51,610 nt of DNA. Source: a virus. The notes under the pieces were generated by a model that saw only the letters and a list, made by a program, of their open reading frames with translations, made no database searches and had not been told where the DNA came from. How positions within the stretch are numbered: the stretch's first letter is position 1; the number at the start of each line of letters is the position of its first letter. Positions 14,070 to 18,486 of this stretch are shown here, one piece after another. The DNA lies in the IMG/VR virus record IMGVR_UViG_3300049617_000177, positions 1 to 51,610 of that record; one strand, given 5' to 3'. Position numbers and translations under genes: made by a program.

Positions 14070-14090
14070 AGATAATATTAGATATTATCT
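14070..14090. promoter_or_regulatory. AT-rich perfect dyad before the protease/scaffold gene
   Basis: AGATAATAT and ATATTATCT are perfect 9-base inverted arms around TAG. The dyad contains the TAA stop of the gpF-like gene and lies 37 bases before the protease/scaffold start. There is no T-run, so an operator or RNA hairpin is more likely than a terminator. Similar dyads occur at 27152 and 40762. Confidence 0.5.
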
Positions 14091-15542
14091 GGAAGACCAA
14101 TTGACAGGCAGAGGCTCGGGCTTTCTGTTTGCACGCTGAATGCTTGCTTTATGAATCAGCTTTGCATGTTCAGGATTGAGAATTGAAAGTGGGACAATCT
14201 CGCTTCGACAGTTCCAATGACAATTATGTACTAAATATCCGCCAGCTATATAGGTATGATCTTTTTCGACTTCGAGATTAAAGACGATTTTTGAGGATTT
14301 ATACCATCCAATTTTCTGTGCAATATTATATGCTCTCTCTGATCCATCACTTGTAAATTTTCTGGACGATTGTCGTCTTTCGTTTGTTTGTTTGCTCGAG
14401 GATGTTCCTTTAGCATTATTCCCACATATCCATACTTCAATTTCTTTTTTCCACCGTTCCAAGAGGGATGATTTTCCCCATTTTGAATAGCCGCCAAAGA
14501 AATAGCATGACATTGACTTGAACAATACTTTCGGTCGCGCTTGCACCAAGGAACCCATCGCTGCTTTGAACACTTTATACAAGTTAAGAGTACTTGTCCG
14601 TAAACCCTCTTCTGCGATGAAATACTCTGCTTCAATAAATCCAAGGCTTCTGTCAAAGTAAGGGTGATTGGGGGTAGCCACTGCGCATCCAATTTGAAAT
14701 AAGTGCTTTGATTTCGAAATCGAACGGTATATTTTTTTAACTCTTTGCCATCTGTTTGCATGCGTCCACACATAATCAGCAGTTCCAATGCAATCAATTC
14801 TTTTCCAACCGTCTAAAGTAAGAATAAGAGATTCTCCTGTAAAACAAGGCGGCGTTTCCTTCTTTAAATATTCGGAACCCTTTTCATAAACGAGGCCAGT
14901 ACGAGTGGCGCACCATTTTGTTGTTCGATGATCACGGATGGCCAAAAATAAGTAATGCGTAATATCTGGATTGGAGTCATAGAAATCTCGTCTTGCCTTG
15001 TTATAATGTAAAGTCGTTTCAGTTCGCGCAGTGGTCTTTGCATCGGCGTATGTCTTTTTTAAATCCTTTTGGATACCTCTAATAATATCAGAATGGTCAA
15101 CCACTTCGCCGGCTAAAAAATCACGTGCATGCTTTTGCCACACGGTTTTTAATTTCTTAAAGTAATCGTCTTTCATTTTTTTGGCGATAACTCGCTGCCT
15201 ACGTGGAATGTCTCTTTTCCTTCGCCACTTTTTCCATTCGTTCATCAAATCGAAAATAGTTTTTGGATCACCTTTGGCCAATCGGTGAGCACTGTTGAAT
15301 GCCTTTTTTTTGACCATGTACATTTGCCAGACAAGCAAGAACTCAAAGTCAAATTGATTTTCATTAACTTTACCCATATTGAAAAGCTGCGTCAGCGAAT
15401 CCGCTGTCACTTTGTCGAGGAACTCTGTGAATCTTTTACACCAATAATTCTCAAGTTGGTCAGCTTCATCGGCTTGCCTTGCAATTTCTGTTAATTGTGA
15501 TTGTGGTAGCAGATGATTTAAGTTAGACAGGTTGCGAATCAT
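14085..15542 (-). CDS. Minor head protein, Mu gpF-like, interrupted by an intein
   Basis: 485 residues including a 208-residue intein (residues 233-440). The host protein is the phage head morphogenesis gpF family: TARTETTLHYNKARRDFYDS, YLFLAIRDHRTTKWCATRTG, YEKGSEYLKKETPP and, after the intein, CHWNCRSEIVPLSI, which completes the conserved 'P-C-H-x-x-C-R' motif. gpF proteins are minor capsid components next to the portal. The intein sits exactly in the most conserved motif and the +1 residue is Cys. The spliced protein would have 277 residues. The gene is separated from its usual partner, the portal gene, by a plus-strand island. Confidence 0.88.
   Translation of the reverse strand: MIRNLSNLNHLLPQSQLTEIARQADEADQLENYWCKRFTEFLDKVTADSLTQLFNMGKVNENQFDFEFLLVWQMYMVKKKAFNSAHRLAKGDPKTIFDLMNEWKKWRRKRDIPRRQRVIAKKMKDDYFKKLKTVWQKHARDFLAGEVVDHSDIIRGIQKDLKKTYADAKTTARTETTLHYNKARRDFYDSNPDITHYLFLAIRDHRTTKWCATRTGLVYEKGSEYLKKETPPCFTGESLILTLDGWKRIDCIGTADYVWTHANRWQRVKKIYRSISKSKHLFQIGCAVATPNHPYFDRSLGFIEAEYFIAEEGLRTSTLNLYKVFKAAMGSLVQARPKVLFKSMSCYFFGGYSKWGKSSLLERWKKEIEVWICGNNAKGTSSSKQTNERRQSSRKFTSDGSERAYNIAQKIGWYKSSKIVFNLEVEKDHTYIAGGYLVHNCHWNCRSEIVPLSILNPEHAKLIHKASIQRANRKPEPLPVNWSSR
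14223..14846 (-). mobile_element. Intein in the gpF-like protein
   Basis: 208 codons. The N-terminal splice block is CFTGESLILTLDGWKRI (Cys1), block B is CAVATPNHPYF (T-x-x-H), block F is VFNLEVEKDHTYIAGGYLV and the end is VHN followed by Cys+1. All residues needed for class 1 protein splicing are visible: Cys1, block B Thr and His, penultimate His, last Asn, Cys+1. The middle shows no endonuclease motif in this frame; an HNH-like sequence lies in the +1 frame (separate entry). It is therefore expected to splice but probably no longer to home. Confidence 0.9.
14312..14611 (-). pseudogene. Out-of-frame HNH homing endonuclease remnant inside the intein
   Basis: In the +1 frame relative to the intein, about 100 codons read as an HNH-type protein: a treble-clef-like CIKCSKQRWVPWCKRDRKYC followed by SSQC, then NGENHPSWNGGKKKLKYGYV, KEHPRANK and DDNRPENLQVMDQREHIILH. 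Members normally have a stretch with the catalytic His pair between HPRAN and DNRPENL; here only KQTKD separates them, so the catalytic core is missing. The segment is open in both frames. I read it as a dead endonuclease whose frame was lost while the intein frame was kept. No own ribosome site is evident. Confidence 0.75.
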
Positions 15543-15556
15543 ATAAGGACGGTAAC

Positions 15557-16297
15557 ATGAAACACCTCGTACTTGGTAGCGGTAACTTAGGCACTGATTT
15601 ATTTGAGACCATCGTGAAAGCTGGCCATGAGGCTGTTATCTGGAAACACGGGGATAAATTCGATTGGCCAAATACGCCGCCGCGCGGACTTGACGCATTT
15701 ACTCACATTTGGTGTGCGGTCGGGTACGGCTCAGTGAATGAAGCTGCAGCTAAATTTCGCCATGCCGTTGATGTCCATGTCAACTTACCTGATTACATTG
15801 TTAGGCATGCTCCGCAAGCGCGTTTGATATTTTTCTCAACTGATTATATCGAATCTCCAGCCTCGTCGCTGTACGCTCTTACGAAATATTTTATGGAGCA
15901 TCGCCTTGCTTTTGAAATGAACTGGGGAGGGCGCAGAAATATAAACATCATTCGCCTAGGATCACTTTATGGAAAACACAGACAAGTTAAAAATCTTGCT
16001 TATCGTTTACAGCAAAATTTAGATGAGATTTTAAAACTTCCCTCAAACATGATCAGACCAACGCCAACAAAATGGGTAGCTGAGGTTTTAGTGGACAAGA
16101 TAAACGATATTCCGCCACTATTTCATTTATGTCCCAGTGATGATGTCTCGGTGGCGGACTTCGGAAAATTTTGCACTGGTAAAGAGGTTGAGGTTGGAAT
16201 GATTGACATCCAACGCCCTCGTGTTATTGAGCCTAAGTGTGCATACTTGAAAGATGCACCGACGTGGAAATCTTTATATGAAGAGTATGCGCTTTGA
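15557..16297 (+). CDS. RmlD-like NAD(P)-dependent sugar reductase/epimerase
   Basis: 246 residues, an extended short-chain dehydrogenase. The Rossmann start is LVLGSGNLG (residues 4-12), FSTDYIES (93-100) matches the RmlD 'STDYVF' block, and YALTK (106-110) supplies the catalytic Tyr and Lys. Family members reduce dTDP-4-keto-6-deoxy sugars or epimerise nucleotide sugars. It is shorter than RmlD (about 290). An RmlC-type epimerase lies on the other side of the portal gene. AAGGACGG precedes the ATG; only 14 bases separate it from the divergent gpF-like start, so its promoter must lie inside that gene or elsewhere. Confidence 0.75.
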   Translation: MKHLVLGSGNLGTDLFETIVKAGHEAVIWKHGDKFDWPNTPPRGLDAFTHIWCAVGYGSVNEAAAKFRHAVDVHVNLPDYIVRHAPQARLIFFSTDYIESPASSLYALTKYFMEHRLAFEMNWGGRRNINIIRLGSLYGKHRQVKNLAYRLQQNLDEILKLPSNMIRPTPTKWVAEVLVDKINDIPPLFHLCPSDDVSVADFGKFCTGKEVEVGMIDIQRPRVIEPKCAYLKDAPTWKSLYEEYAL

Positions 16298-16439
16298 ATG
16301 AACTGTTTTTGACCTTATTGCAGATGGTGGTGGCATGAAAGTCGAAAGGCAAAGCTAGACGGACAGGAAGTAAAAAGCCTGAAACCGGAGGATTAGCGTA
16401 TTCCCAGTTCGAATCTGGGGAGGTTAAAAACAGTTCATT
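16297..16439 (+). ncRNA. Candidate structured RNA with tRNA-like T arm and a 20-bp closing helix
   Basis: Bases 16297-16316 pair with 16420-16439 over 20 positions (18 Watson-Crick, 2 G-U). Inside the 3' arm, CCCAG TTCGAAT CTGGG (16403-16419) is a canonical tRNA T arm, directly followed by GAGGTTA, which pairs with TGACCTT at 16310-16316 exactly as a 7-bp acceptor stem would. Between them lie 86 bases instead of about 42; they contain a short TGC/GCA stem (16319-16335) and a nested hairpin (CGG, CAGG with CCTG, CCG) but no normal anticodon arm. It could be an unusual tRNA-like RNA, a processed phage RNA, or a tRNA fragment captured at an attachment site. Strand is taken from the tRNA-like polarity. 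Confidence 0.5.
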
Positions 16440-16717
16440 GAGAGTGCAGCGTGGAAAGCTGTGGATATAAAAAACTAGAAGATACTTACCTGAAAAGGCG
16501 GACTGAGTAGCGTGACCCGCAAACGGCACAACCACTAGAGACACGCAGGAGCGGCAACTCCTTACTGTAAAATAAGCGTTCCTCCGTAAAGAAGGCCGGC
16601 GTTAAATAAAAAAGTATAGCCAGAGTCGCGCCTGGCCATCTCTCTTTATTACAAATGGGGTATGTATTGAAAACGATAAACGGAGTGCCGCAGTTTAAAG
16701 AAAATGGGAGATAAACA
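16440..16717. other. Non-coding stretch after the structured RNA
   Basis: About 280 bases without a convincing gene. It has small hairpins (AGGAG CGGCAA CTCCT near 16547-16562; GCCAG AGTCGCGC CTGGC at 16618-16635). The latter has TTTTTT nearby only when read on the minus strand, so it may end antisense transcription. A 19-codon frame (16655-16714) ends just before the next gene, whose ribosome site is GGGAGAT. It may be the 3' part of a longer untranslated RNA. Confidence 0.4.
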
Positions 16718-17227
16718 ATGAGTTTAAAAATACAAATCAACAGTGCTAAGATTAAGACATTCAAGCCATGCAAGGATAGATTTGATAATTGGCTTGAGCA
16801 TTACGACGGTTTCAATGGAGATATTTTAGAGTTTTTAGCTCTGGATAAGATCACAAATAAAGACAAGATCTGGGTATCTGTCAGAGTCTTGCCTGGAGAG
16901 CAGCTTGAATACTTTGCGATAGATTCAGCATTTGCGGCGACGGGATATGCTGCTGCTTATGCTGCTGCTGCTACTACTTATGCTGCTGCTGCTGCTACTA
17001 CTTATGCTGATGCTGCTGCTGCTGCTGCTACTACTTATGCTGCTGCTGCTTATGCTGCTGATGCTGCTGCTTATGCTGCTGCTGATGCTGCTGCTTATGC
17101 TGCTGCTACTTATGCTGCTGCTGCTGCTGCTGCTACTGCTACTACTTATGCTGATGCTGCTGCTTATGCTGCTGCTGAAAGATCTCGCCAAGTGGACTGT
17201 TTGGACTATCTGATTAGGAATGCATGA
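16718..17227 (+). CDS. Phage protein with long alanine/tyrosine repeat
   Basis: 169 residues. The first 76 form a compact domain (FKPCKDRFDNWLEHYDGFNG, ILEFLALDKITNKDKIWVSV, RVLPGEQLEYFAIDSA). Then about 77 residues consist almost only of Ala with periodic Tyr, Asp and Thr, encoded by GCT runs, and the chain ends ERSRQVDCLDYLIRNA. This domain-plus-Ala-repeat layout occurs in many phages with repeat number varying between strains; function is unknown. The repeat should form a long helix with Tyr spaced every four to five residues. The next tiny gene overlaps its stop by ATGA. Confidence 0.7.
   Translation: MSLKIQINSAKIKTFKPCKDRFDNWLEHYDGFNGDILEFLALDKITNKDKIWVSVRVLPGEQLEYFAIDSAFAATGYAAAYAAAATTYAAAAATTYADAAAAAATTYAAAAYAADAAAYAAADAAAYAAATYAAAAAAATATTYADAAAYAAAERSRQVDCLDYLIRNA
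16946..17176 (+). repeat. GCT microsatellite coding for Ala repeats
   Basis: 231 bases built from TAT (GCT)n with interspersed ACT and GAT codons. All units keep the reading frame. Unit lengths are irregular, as expected from slipped-strand expansion and contraction. Assemblies of such repeats are often collapsed, so the length should be treated as approximate. Confidence 0.9.
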
Positions 17228-17310
17228 TGGAAGGCATTCAAGGCGTAATCTTAGTTATATGTATGGGGCTATTTGTGAATGCTGTCTGTAGATGGATGGA
17301 TAGAGTATGA
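17224..17310 (+). CDS. Tiny single-span membrane peptide
   Basis: 28 codons starting at ATG 17224, overlapping the previous stop as ATGA. The peptide reads MMEGIQGVILVICMGLFVNA followed by VCRWMDRV: one hydrophobic span with a basic C-terminal end. No family is recognisable. The overlap favours a real, translationally coupled gene. It resembles the 21-residue peptide at 40993-41058 (G-L-x-V-x-x-x-C). Confidence 0.45.
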   Translation: MMEGIQGVILVICMGLFVNAVCRWMDRV

Positions 17311-17341
17311 CTTCTGACCCTAAAGAAAGCCCGAGAGAGTT

Positions 17342-18043
17342 ATGAAGTACGGATGGGAAATTGCAGATGAGGTTCAGCGATTTGTTGGAAACTCGGCGGA
17401 TGTTAAATTTGTTGAAGCTGAGGCCTACGAAGCCGTCAAAGCGGAGTGCGCGATTCTCAGAGAGGCCAATGACAATTGTATTTCAAGAGGGCTTCATGAA
17501 AGCCGAATGCAGGCCATTGAGGAAGAAAACGCCGCCCTCAAATCAGACTACGGCACTTGTGATGCTGAACGAGACACACTCAAAGCTGAAGTGGAGAGAT
17601 TGAAATCTAAATGGGAGCAAGAACAAGATTTGCTTGGTGAATGCTTATTCAACCATGCACAAAAATTGACTAAATGTCAGGAACTCCGCGAACAAGTTGA
17701 ATTTGAGCAATCCGTCGTGCGCGAACGAGAGTCGATGAATGCGCTGCACTTGCGAAAATTGAAGCAGCTTGAGGATGAGACGGATAAGCTCCGCGCTGAA
17801 GTGGAGCGGTTGAAGACGTGTGATGAAACCCTCGCTGTCATTCTTGCAAAATTAAATAAGCGCACGCAAAGAAACGCAGAACTCCGCGAGCACGGCAAGG
17901 CTTTGTATGATGCGCTGAAATCGGAGTGCTGTTGCACTGGAGAAACAGAGTGCGTTGGCGGTATAATTAAGCCTATTTTATGCGATGCTTGCGAAGCCCT
18001 CGCGCTTCACGGGAAGTTTTTTGTGGAAGGTGGTGGGGAGTGA
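17342..18043 (+). CDS. Coiled-coil protein with Cys-rich C-terminus
   Basis: 233 residues, not recognised. Residues about 25-190 are heptad-rich coiled coil (EEENAALKSDYGTCDAERDT, LKAEVERLK twice, ELREQVEFEQSVVRERES). Near the C-terminus CCCTGETECVGGIIKPILC followed by DAC gives five to six Cys that could bind zinc. KAEVERLK and RAEVERLK, about 75 residues apart, suggest an internal duplication. It overlaps the methyltransferase start. Such proteins are common in phage accessory regions; no activity can be inferred. Confidence 0.7.
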   Translation: MKYGWEIADEVQRFVGNSADVKFVEAEAYEAVKAECAILREANDNCISRGLHESRMQAIEEENAALKSDYGTCDAERDTLKAEVERLKSKWEQEQDLLGECLFNHAQKLTKCQELREQVEFEQSVVRERESMNALHLRKLKQLEDETDKLRAEVERLKTCDETLAVILAKLNKRTQRNAELREHGKALYDALKSECCCTGETECVGGIIKPILCDACEALALHGKFFVEGGGE

Positions 18044-18486
18044 GCTTTGAAACTGGGAATAAGGATGGAAAGCATTATTGGCTTACGCCGCCTGAGCTTA
18101 TGGAGGCTCTACAGCTTGAATTCAAGTTTGATTTCGATCCATGTCCATATCCTCAGCCTATTGGATTTGATGGCTTAACAACCGATTGGGGCCAATCGAA
18201 TTGGGTAAACCCTCCATTTGGATCCATCATGCATGAAGGAAAGAAGAAGGGTCCTACTGCATGGGCCAGAAAAGCGATTGCAGAGGCCAACAAGGGTAAG
18301 GATGTAGTTTTTGTCTATCCTATTGATAAATGGGTTTTAATGCTTATTGAAAGGGCCAGTGAAGTGAGAAACTTAAAAGATGTAAAATGGTGCGCGACTG
18401 AAGATGGATCCAGCGGTCCAGGCATAGGCCGACATGTTGGGATGTTCGTTTTGCGTGGCCATCGTGAAGGGACTGCCTCGAAATGA
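18040..18486 (+). CDS. Phage DNA N6-adenine methyltransferase (Dam type)
   Basis: 148 residues from GTG 18040, overlapping the previous stop as GTGA, with GGAAGGTGG upstream; a longer frame from 17980 would add residues shadowing the upstream gene. Motifs of the phage DNA N-6-adenine-methyltransferase family: YWLTPPELMEALQLEF, FDFDPCPYP (residues 31-38), WGQSNWVNPPFG with the catalytic NPPF (57-60), and GKDVVFVYPIDKW. It would methylate adenine in phage DNA, often protecting it from host restriction. No partner endonuclease is nearby. Confidence 0.85.
   Translation: MSFETGNKDGKHYWLTPPELMEALQLEFKFDFDPCPYPQPIGFDGLTTDWGQSNWVNPPFGSIMHEGKKKGPTAWARKAIAEANKGKDVVFVYPIDKWVLMLIERASEVRNLKDVKWCATEDGSSGPGIGRHVGMFVLRGHREGTASK

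Follow-up and report, generated by a model that had tools for sequence, protein, structure and literature searches.

We analysed a 51,610-nucleotide stretch of DNA (IMG/VR record IMGVR_UViG_3300049617_000177; the window), which we assign to a tailed phage because it is filed as a virus record and carries terminase, portal, major head, and tail sheath genes near the locus described here. On the minus strand at 14085-15542, an ORF whose translation is 485 amino acids long when unspliced encodes a gpF/SPP1-gp7-like minor head protein. TIGR01641 (phageSPP1_gp7) matched this gene at 40.9 bits (cut-off 39.65), and PF04233 gave 20.5 bits, under its cut-off of 29.6; for the corresponding gene of a second contig (L002, described below), the scores were 49 and 29.9 bits, the latter over the cut-off. 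Plus-strand ORFs at 15557-18486 sit between the gpF and portal genes, whereas the rest of the head module is on the minus strand; one of these ORFs resembles, by eye, an NAD-dependent epimerase. The same region includes a TGC-rich triplet array (16948-17177, periods 3 and 36) within an Ala/Tyr-rich ORF (16718-17227, plus strand); both strands hold long open frames there.

Within the gpF frame lies a 208-residue segment (14223-14846; this and all further features of the element are on the minus strand) that has the splice blocks and junctions of an intein. Block A, with the catalytic Cys1, is found at 14796-14846 (CFTGESLILTLDGWKRI), and block B, with its TxxH motif, at 14655-14690 (GCAVATPNHPYF), in bases that are also codons of a second, nested frame. 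Blocks F and G, which end in the His-Asn of VHN, occupy 14223-14285 (VFNLEVEKDHTYIAGGYLVHN). The insertion point falls between PP and CHWNCRS of the gpF-like gene. An earlier note on this DNA had claimed that the host residue at +1 is itself the conserved Cys, and this agrees both with CHWNCRS in the gene, where the +1 Cys of the C-extein is at 14220-14222, and with P[P/A]CHWNCRSE in relatives. The full set of class 1 splice residues (position 1, the block B Thr and His, the penultimate His, the terminal Asn, and the +1 Cys) is present in the window and in L002 (2/2). Excision of the segment from the 485-residue ORF would yield a predicted spliced product of 277 amino acids; the corresponding prediction for L002 is 287 amino acids.

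Comparison with intein profiles, a check proposed in the earlier note, gave a mixed outcome. The model of the intein C-terminal splicing region (TIGR01443; cut-off 15.6 bits) matched the window at 24.2 bits, with L002 under the cut-off, and residues 1-68 of the intein matched a group of eight phage methylase and ribonucleotide reductase (RNR) inteins with 98.3% probability in a profile-profile comparison (hhalign). The PF14890 model (Intein_splicing), however, scored 20.7 bits in the window, below its cut-off of 35.8, and was not listed for L002. An AlphaFold model of the intein, built from two sequences, had a pLDDT of 34 and was left out of the argument. We also considered and dropped an intron reading of the insert: Rfam models of group I and group II introns matched nowhere in the window at E values up to 1, and in L002 they gave a single, unrelated chance match.

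Searching viral_contigs with the joined extein (277 amino acids) returned seven loci. Five of them (L020-L024) are vacant and run directly through P[P/A]CHWNCRSE without an insert, and the other two (L025 and L026) are contigs whose gene copies, identical to each other, hold an intein exactly where the window has its own. The counter-case raised in the earlier note, a homologue in which the segment is an ordinary domain, was not seen among these seven relatives. Scans of viral_contigs (P0001, A1, A2, and P0003) and two junction patterns recovered only the same two contigs as intein-bearing relatives, and a junction pattern run against genome_contigs gave five matches, all of them short chance frames. 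The intein of L002 (IMGVR 3300006052_000012) lies at the same site and is 52% identical to that of the window, to which it aligns without gaps over the first 431 nucleotides; the gene in L001, from another metagenome, is identical to that in L002. We conclude that the 208-residue segment is a real class 1 intein, predicted to splice. The placement of an intein at 14223-14846 thus stood, with exact coordinates and motifs, a TIGR01443 score over the cut-off, and empty-site relatives; what did not stand was the reading of its middle as plain intein, which overlooked an HNH gene in another frame.

This nested open frame is shifted by +1 relative to the splicing frame, runs from TTG to TAG at 14246-14797, and encodes 183 amino acids of a degenerate HNH homing endonuclease (phrog_20891, E 1.2e-9). 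In L002 the nested frame is a 206-residue ORF in the same +1 frame with a complete HNH (phrog_20891, E 1.5e-30). Thus, in both copies the endonuclease is not in frame with the splicing blocks, and in both the HNH frame ends at its own stop ahead of the intein end. The window frame retains a zinc-ribbon-like CxxC...CSSxC part at 14510-14581, whose role we presume, from other HNH families, to be zinc binding, and the C-terminal half of the HNH motif (DNRPENL...H...LH) at 14318-14374. Between these, at the junction 14383-14384, 29 codons of the HNH core comprising the EH and HH positions are missing relative to L002, and both frames stay open across the junction. Among the lost residues are H149, H168, and H169, positions shared by at least 90% of 29 aligned HNHs. 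PF13392 (HNH_3; cut-off 24.8) scored 47.1 bits for L002 and 12.1 bits for the window copy, in which the core is absent, and tblastn of the L002 HNH gave 276 records, while tblastn of the degenerate window HNH against phages gave no match. Because the 29 lost core residues include the EH and HH positions, the window HNH is probably dead, with homing lost and splicing predicted to be kept.

An AlphaFold model of the L002 HNH had a core pLDDT of 92-98 and retrieved HNH and homing endonucleases from a viral structure library, and a fold search of the PDB with this model gave nothing below E 0.06. The N-terminal, overprinted part of the model (pLDDT about 55-80) was not relied on. Two ATGs of the HNH frame (14773 and 14761; region 14759-14773) are kept in L002, and we propose that the nested gene starts in this region. 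No Shine-Dalgarno sequence precedes these ATGs, the nearest approach being GGA, and no same-strand promoter-like site was seen in either gene, of the window or of L002. Recognisable HNH homology starts only at about residue 74.

Window and L002 differ in a frame-specific manner along the intein. Counted by codon position of the splicing frame (frame 0), the differences were [6,4,16] over nt 0-87 of the intein and [5,3,9] over nt 654-705, a third-position excess at the intein edges that is the pattern expected for the splicing protein. Over the HNH region (nt 87-429), the differences were [53,25,26], and the excess was at the first position of the splicing frame, which is the third position of the HNH frame. 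The fitted change point of the substitution pattern fell at nt 93 (permutation p 0.0016), adjoining the HNH-frame ATGs at nt 73 and 85, both of which are kept in the window and L002. Across the block B stretch (nt 150-210), the two copies agree at 14/20 residues when read in frame 0 and at 15/20 when read in the HNH frame. Taken alone, nt 87-150 show weak HNH-frame constraint ([13,8,6]), and because homology is recognisable only from about residue 74, the HNH start codon is not fixed. These frame statistics amount to one pairwise comparison, since the element is known from just two independent sequences (the L001 and L002 genes being identical).

When the HNH protein was held fixed and its codons were shuffled synonymously, the splicing frame was open in 0/20,000 shuffles for each copy, with 9-13 stops expected; in the converse shuffles, which kept the splicing protein constant, 0.6% (L002) and 1.8% (window) left the HNH frame open. 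The shuffle results and the frame-specific substitutions argue that both frames are held by selection and speak against sequencing error. The same substitutions, with the 0/20,000 shuffles, suggest that the splicing domain and the endonuclease are separately translated.

Together, the splice motifs, the empty sites, the presence of both open frames in each of the diverged copies, the frame-specific constraint, and the deletion are probably best read as a class 1 mini-intein in a gpF-like gene with a separate, overlapping +1 HNH homing gene, intact in L002 and broken in the window. Splicing, separate HNH translation, cleavage, and homing are read here from sequence, and we propose that they would proceed as follows. 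The intein would remove itself from the translated head protein, the gpF precursor, and join PP to CHWNCRS. The homing endonuclease would be no intein domain but the product of a separate HNH gene lying over the intein coding sequence in the +1 frame, which probably starts at one of the two internal ATGs, roughly 75-90 nucleotides from the intein start, and reaches no further than block F. As a free enzyme, the HNH would cut gpF genes of competing phages at the vacant site, and mending of the break would bring in a copy of the entire element. Over the length of the HNH gene, the splicing frame would have to stay open and would serve there as a linker with little sequence conservation. The window element would then be a leftover of a homing cycle that still splices.

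As a rule, the endonuclease of an intein is a domain of the same protein, so that one translation yields both activities. We somewhat favour the further view that this intein is instead laid out like a group I intron, with two separately translated genes, an endonuclease start overprinted on block B, and dual-frame constraint, which would make it the first described case of an intein whose endonuclease is out of frame. In such a layout, with the endonuclease start overprinted on splicing block B, one DNA segment would be under constraint in both frames. If this layout is true, a separately translated, overlapping endonuclease uncouples homing from splicing and either may decay alone; the window copy suggests such independent decay.

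In-frame endonuclease domains are the rule in inteins and metagenome assemblies can contain indel errors, from which one could argue that this is a conventional intein with an in-frame HNH that only appears out of frame through sequencing or assembly indels. The phase, however, is common to the window and L002, whose inteins are only 52% identical, and L001, from a second metagenome, has the same gene as L002; two matching indels per lineage would be needed. Chance alone would then have to account for an open frame 0 (0/20,000 shuffles), and in both copies the HNH frame reaches a stop of its own ahead of the intein end. Because both lineages show the same phase, and in view of the shuffle outcome, we rejected a frame error or assembly artefact, which we regard as highly improbable. 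Endonuclease decay in fixed inteins is well known, and the window copy, without 29 HNH core residues, would suit an old endonuclease domain that was shifted out of frame by compensating indels as the intein decayed and is no longer expressed. Yet the out-of-frame HNH of L002 is intact, with all conserved positions present, and since the split of the two copies the HNH frame was the constrained one, a signal that a silent relic would lack. We therefore consider an unexpressed relic unlikely.

The switch of constraint at nt 93 and the lack of a Shine-Dalgarno sequence at the internal starts would also fit ribosomes that start in gpF and slip +1 near nt 85-93 of the intein, fusing the first intein block to the HNH. 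Against such slippage, two ATGs are conserved in the HNH frame at the switch, and no classic slip site was seen there by eye; we doubt that it accounts for the element. A last alternative concerns the splicing domain itself, which could be a bacterial intein-like (BIL) domain that cleaves instead of splicing, or part of a non-splicing insert of the ShiLan kind discussed below. The best match among solved structures was indeed a BIL domain (2lwy, E 1.2e-4, by sequence), and hidden HNHs of the ShiLan kind lie in inserts without splicing domains. A BIL domain, however, is a HINT domain without an obligate +1 nucleophile or an invaded conserved site, whereas the +1 Cys, the terminal His-Asn, and the exact insertion at a conserved motif that is vacant in relatives fit a splicing intein. 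The similarity of blocks A and B to phage methylase inteins and the match to the C-terminal model TIGR01443 point the same way, and we give a non-splicing HINT domain or insert little credence. We retain the reading of a splicing mini-intein with a separate HNH gene.

How common is this arrangement? In viral_contigs the L002 HNH had 114 relatives, and the survey covered 80 of these loci, representing 58 distinct match proteins (2/58 held a stop, and some match lengths were not multiples of three). An alternative same-strand frame was open across the HNH match at 5/80 loci, or in 4/58 distinct match proteins. Two of these five loci (L034 and L035) are the gpF intein element, and the other three have a methylase-like overlapping ORF, in which we found no splice motif by eye. 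These three IMG/VR contigs (L038, 138-1382; L043, 2755-4563; L074, 3159-4406) carry an HNH out of frame inside the methylase-like ORF, in the manner of ShiLan, and their hidden HNHs are in the +1 phase, as in the gpF intein element.

Inteins in head genes of this type have precedents. One was reported in 2004 in F (gp30), a gpF-type head assembly gene of a Mu-like prophage of Methylococcus capsulatus; its authors found no recognisable endonuclease sequence, and it is said to resemble archaeal IF-2 inteins (PMC517821). A second, reported in 2020 as an intein or 0.8 kb homing endonuclease, interrupts a minor head protein in cryophage AB09, in a region variable among related phages; the passages on it mention no out-of-frame arrangement (PMC7468147). 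The two precedents weaken the suggestion in the earlier note that gpF is an unusual site for an intein. If our reading is true, the other frames of inteins now filed as endonuclease-less mini-inteins, such as the Methylococcus gpF intein, are worth reading.

The phage methylase and RNR inteins (P1 Dmt, Erwinia pEa_SNUABM_5, Lana, B22, Lactococcus 949, and others) are clearly related to the window intein in blocks A and B, and several likewise insert just ahead of a Cys after Pro. The Dmt methylase of one P1 isolate (L013, 3004-4026) has an intein-like segment, C...VVHN|C, that aligns with other phage inteins. These inteins differ from that of the window (208 residues) in being 322-357 residues long and in having an out-of-frame HNH-like ORF in 0/8 cases, by eye; their middle looks like an in-frame LAGLIDADG endonuclease. 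When alternative frames of the eight intein-bearing phage genes and ShiLan gp65 were inspected by eye, a hidden HNH was seen only in ShiLan. In the fractured genes of Dassa et al. (2009), inteins are reportedly split, with the endonuclease as a separate gene and the host gene physically broken. A separate endonuclease would be common to both arrangements, but in the gpF element the endonuclease gene lies over an unbroken intein.

The closest counterpart of the nested HNH is the ShiLan domain, a hidden HNH insertion in phage DNA methylases, described in 2025 as an out-of-frame HNH within a stop-free, non-splicing insert (PMC11855218). Both elements are stop-free inserts in a host gene with an out-of-frame HNH inside and no detectable ribosome binding site, and the ShiLan authors meet the same puzzle of expression. 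The two HNHs are homologous: among the matches listed, the HNH of L002 aligned with that of ShiLan over residues 60-194 at 32.6% identity (E 3e-12). ShiLan, however, has no splicing domain, is argued to be a non-intein, and resides in methylases (PMC11855218), whereas the gpF element has a flanking splicing domain and a head protein host; by our own reading of the sequence, the ShiLan HNH is in the +2 frame, and that of the gpF element in +1. The gpF element works like a hidden HNH yet is not filed as a ShiLan element, because splicing blocks are present in the insert. If our reading is true, it links inteins to these recently described hidden-HNH insertions without a splicing domain.

A search of PMC full text, outside which most subscription papers lie, found no splicing intein with an out-of-frame endonuclease; the only relevant records were the ShiLan work and a genome note on another ShiLan-like methylase (PMC12613952). 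Inteins had already been reported in gpF (2004) and in a minor head protein (2020), as had an out-of-frame HNH in a non-splicing insert (2025); as far as PMC full text goes, what appears to be new is their combination, a splicing intein with an out-of-frame HNH.
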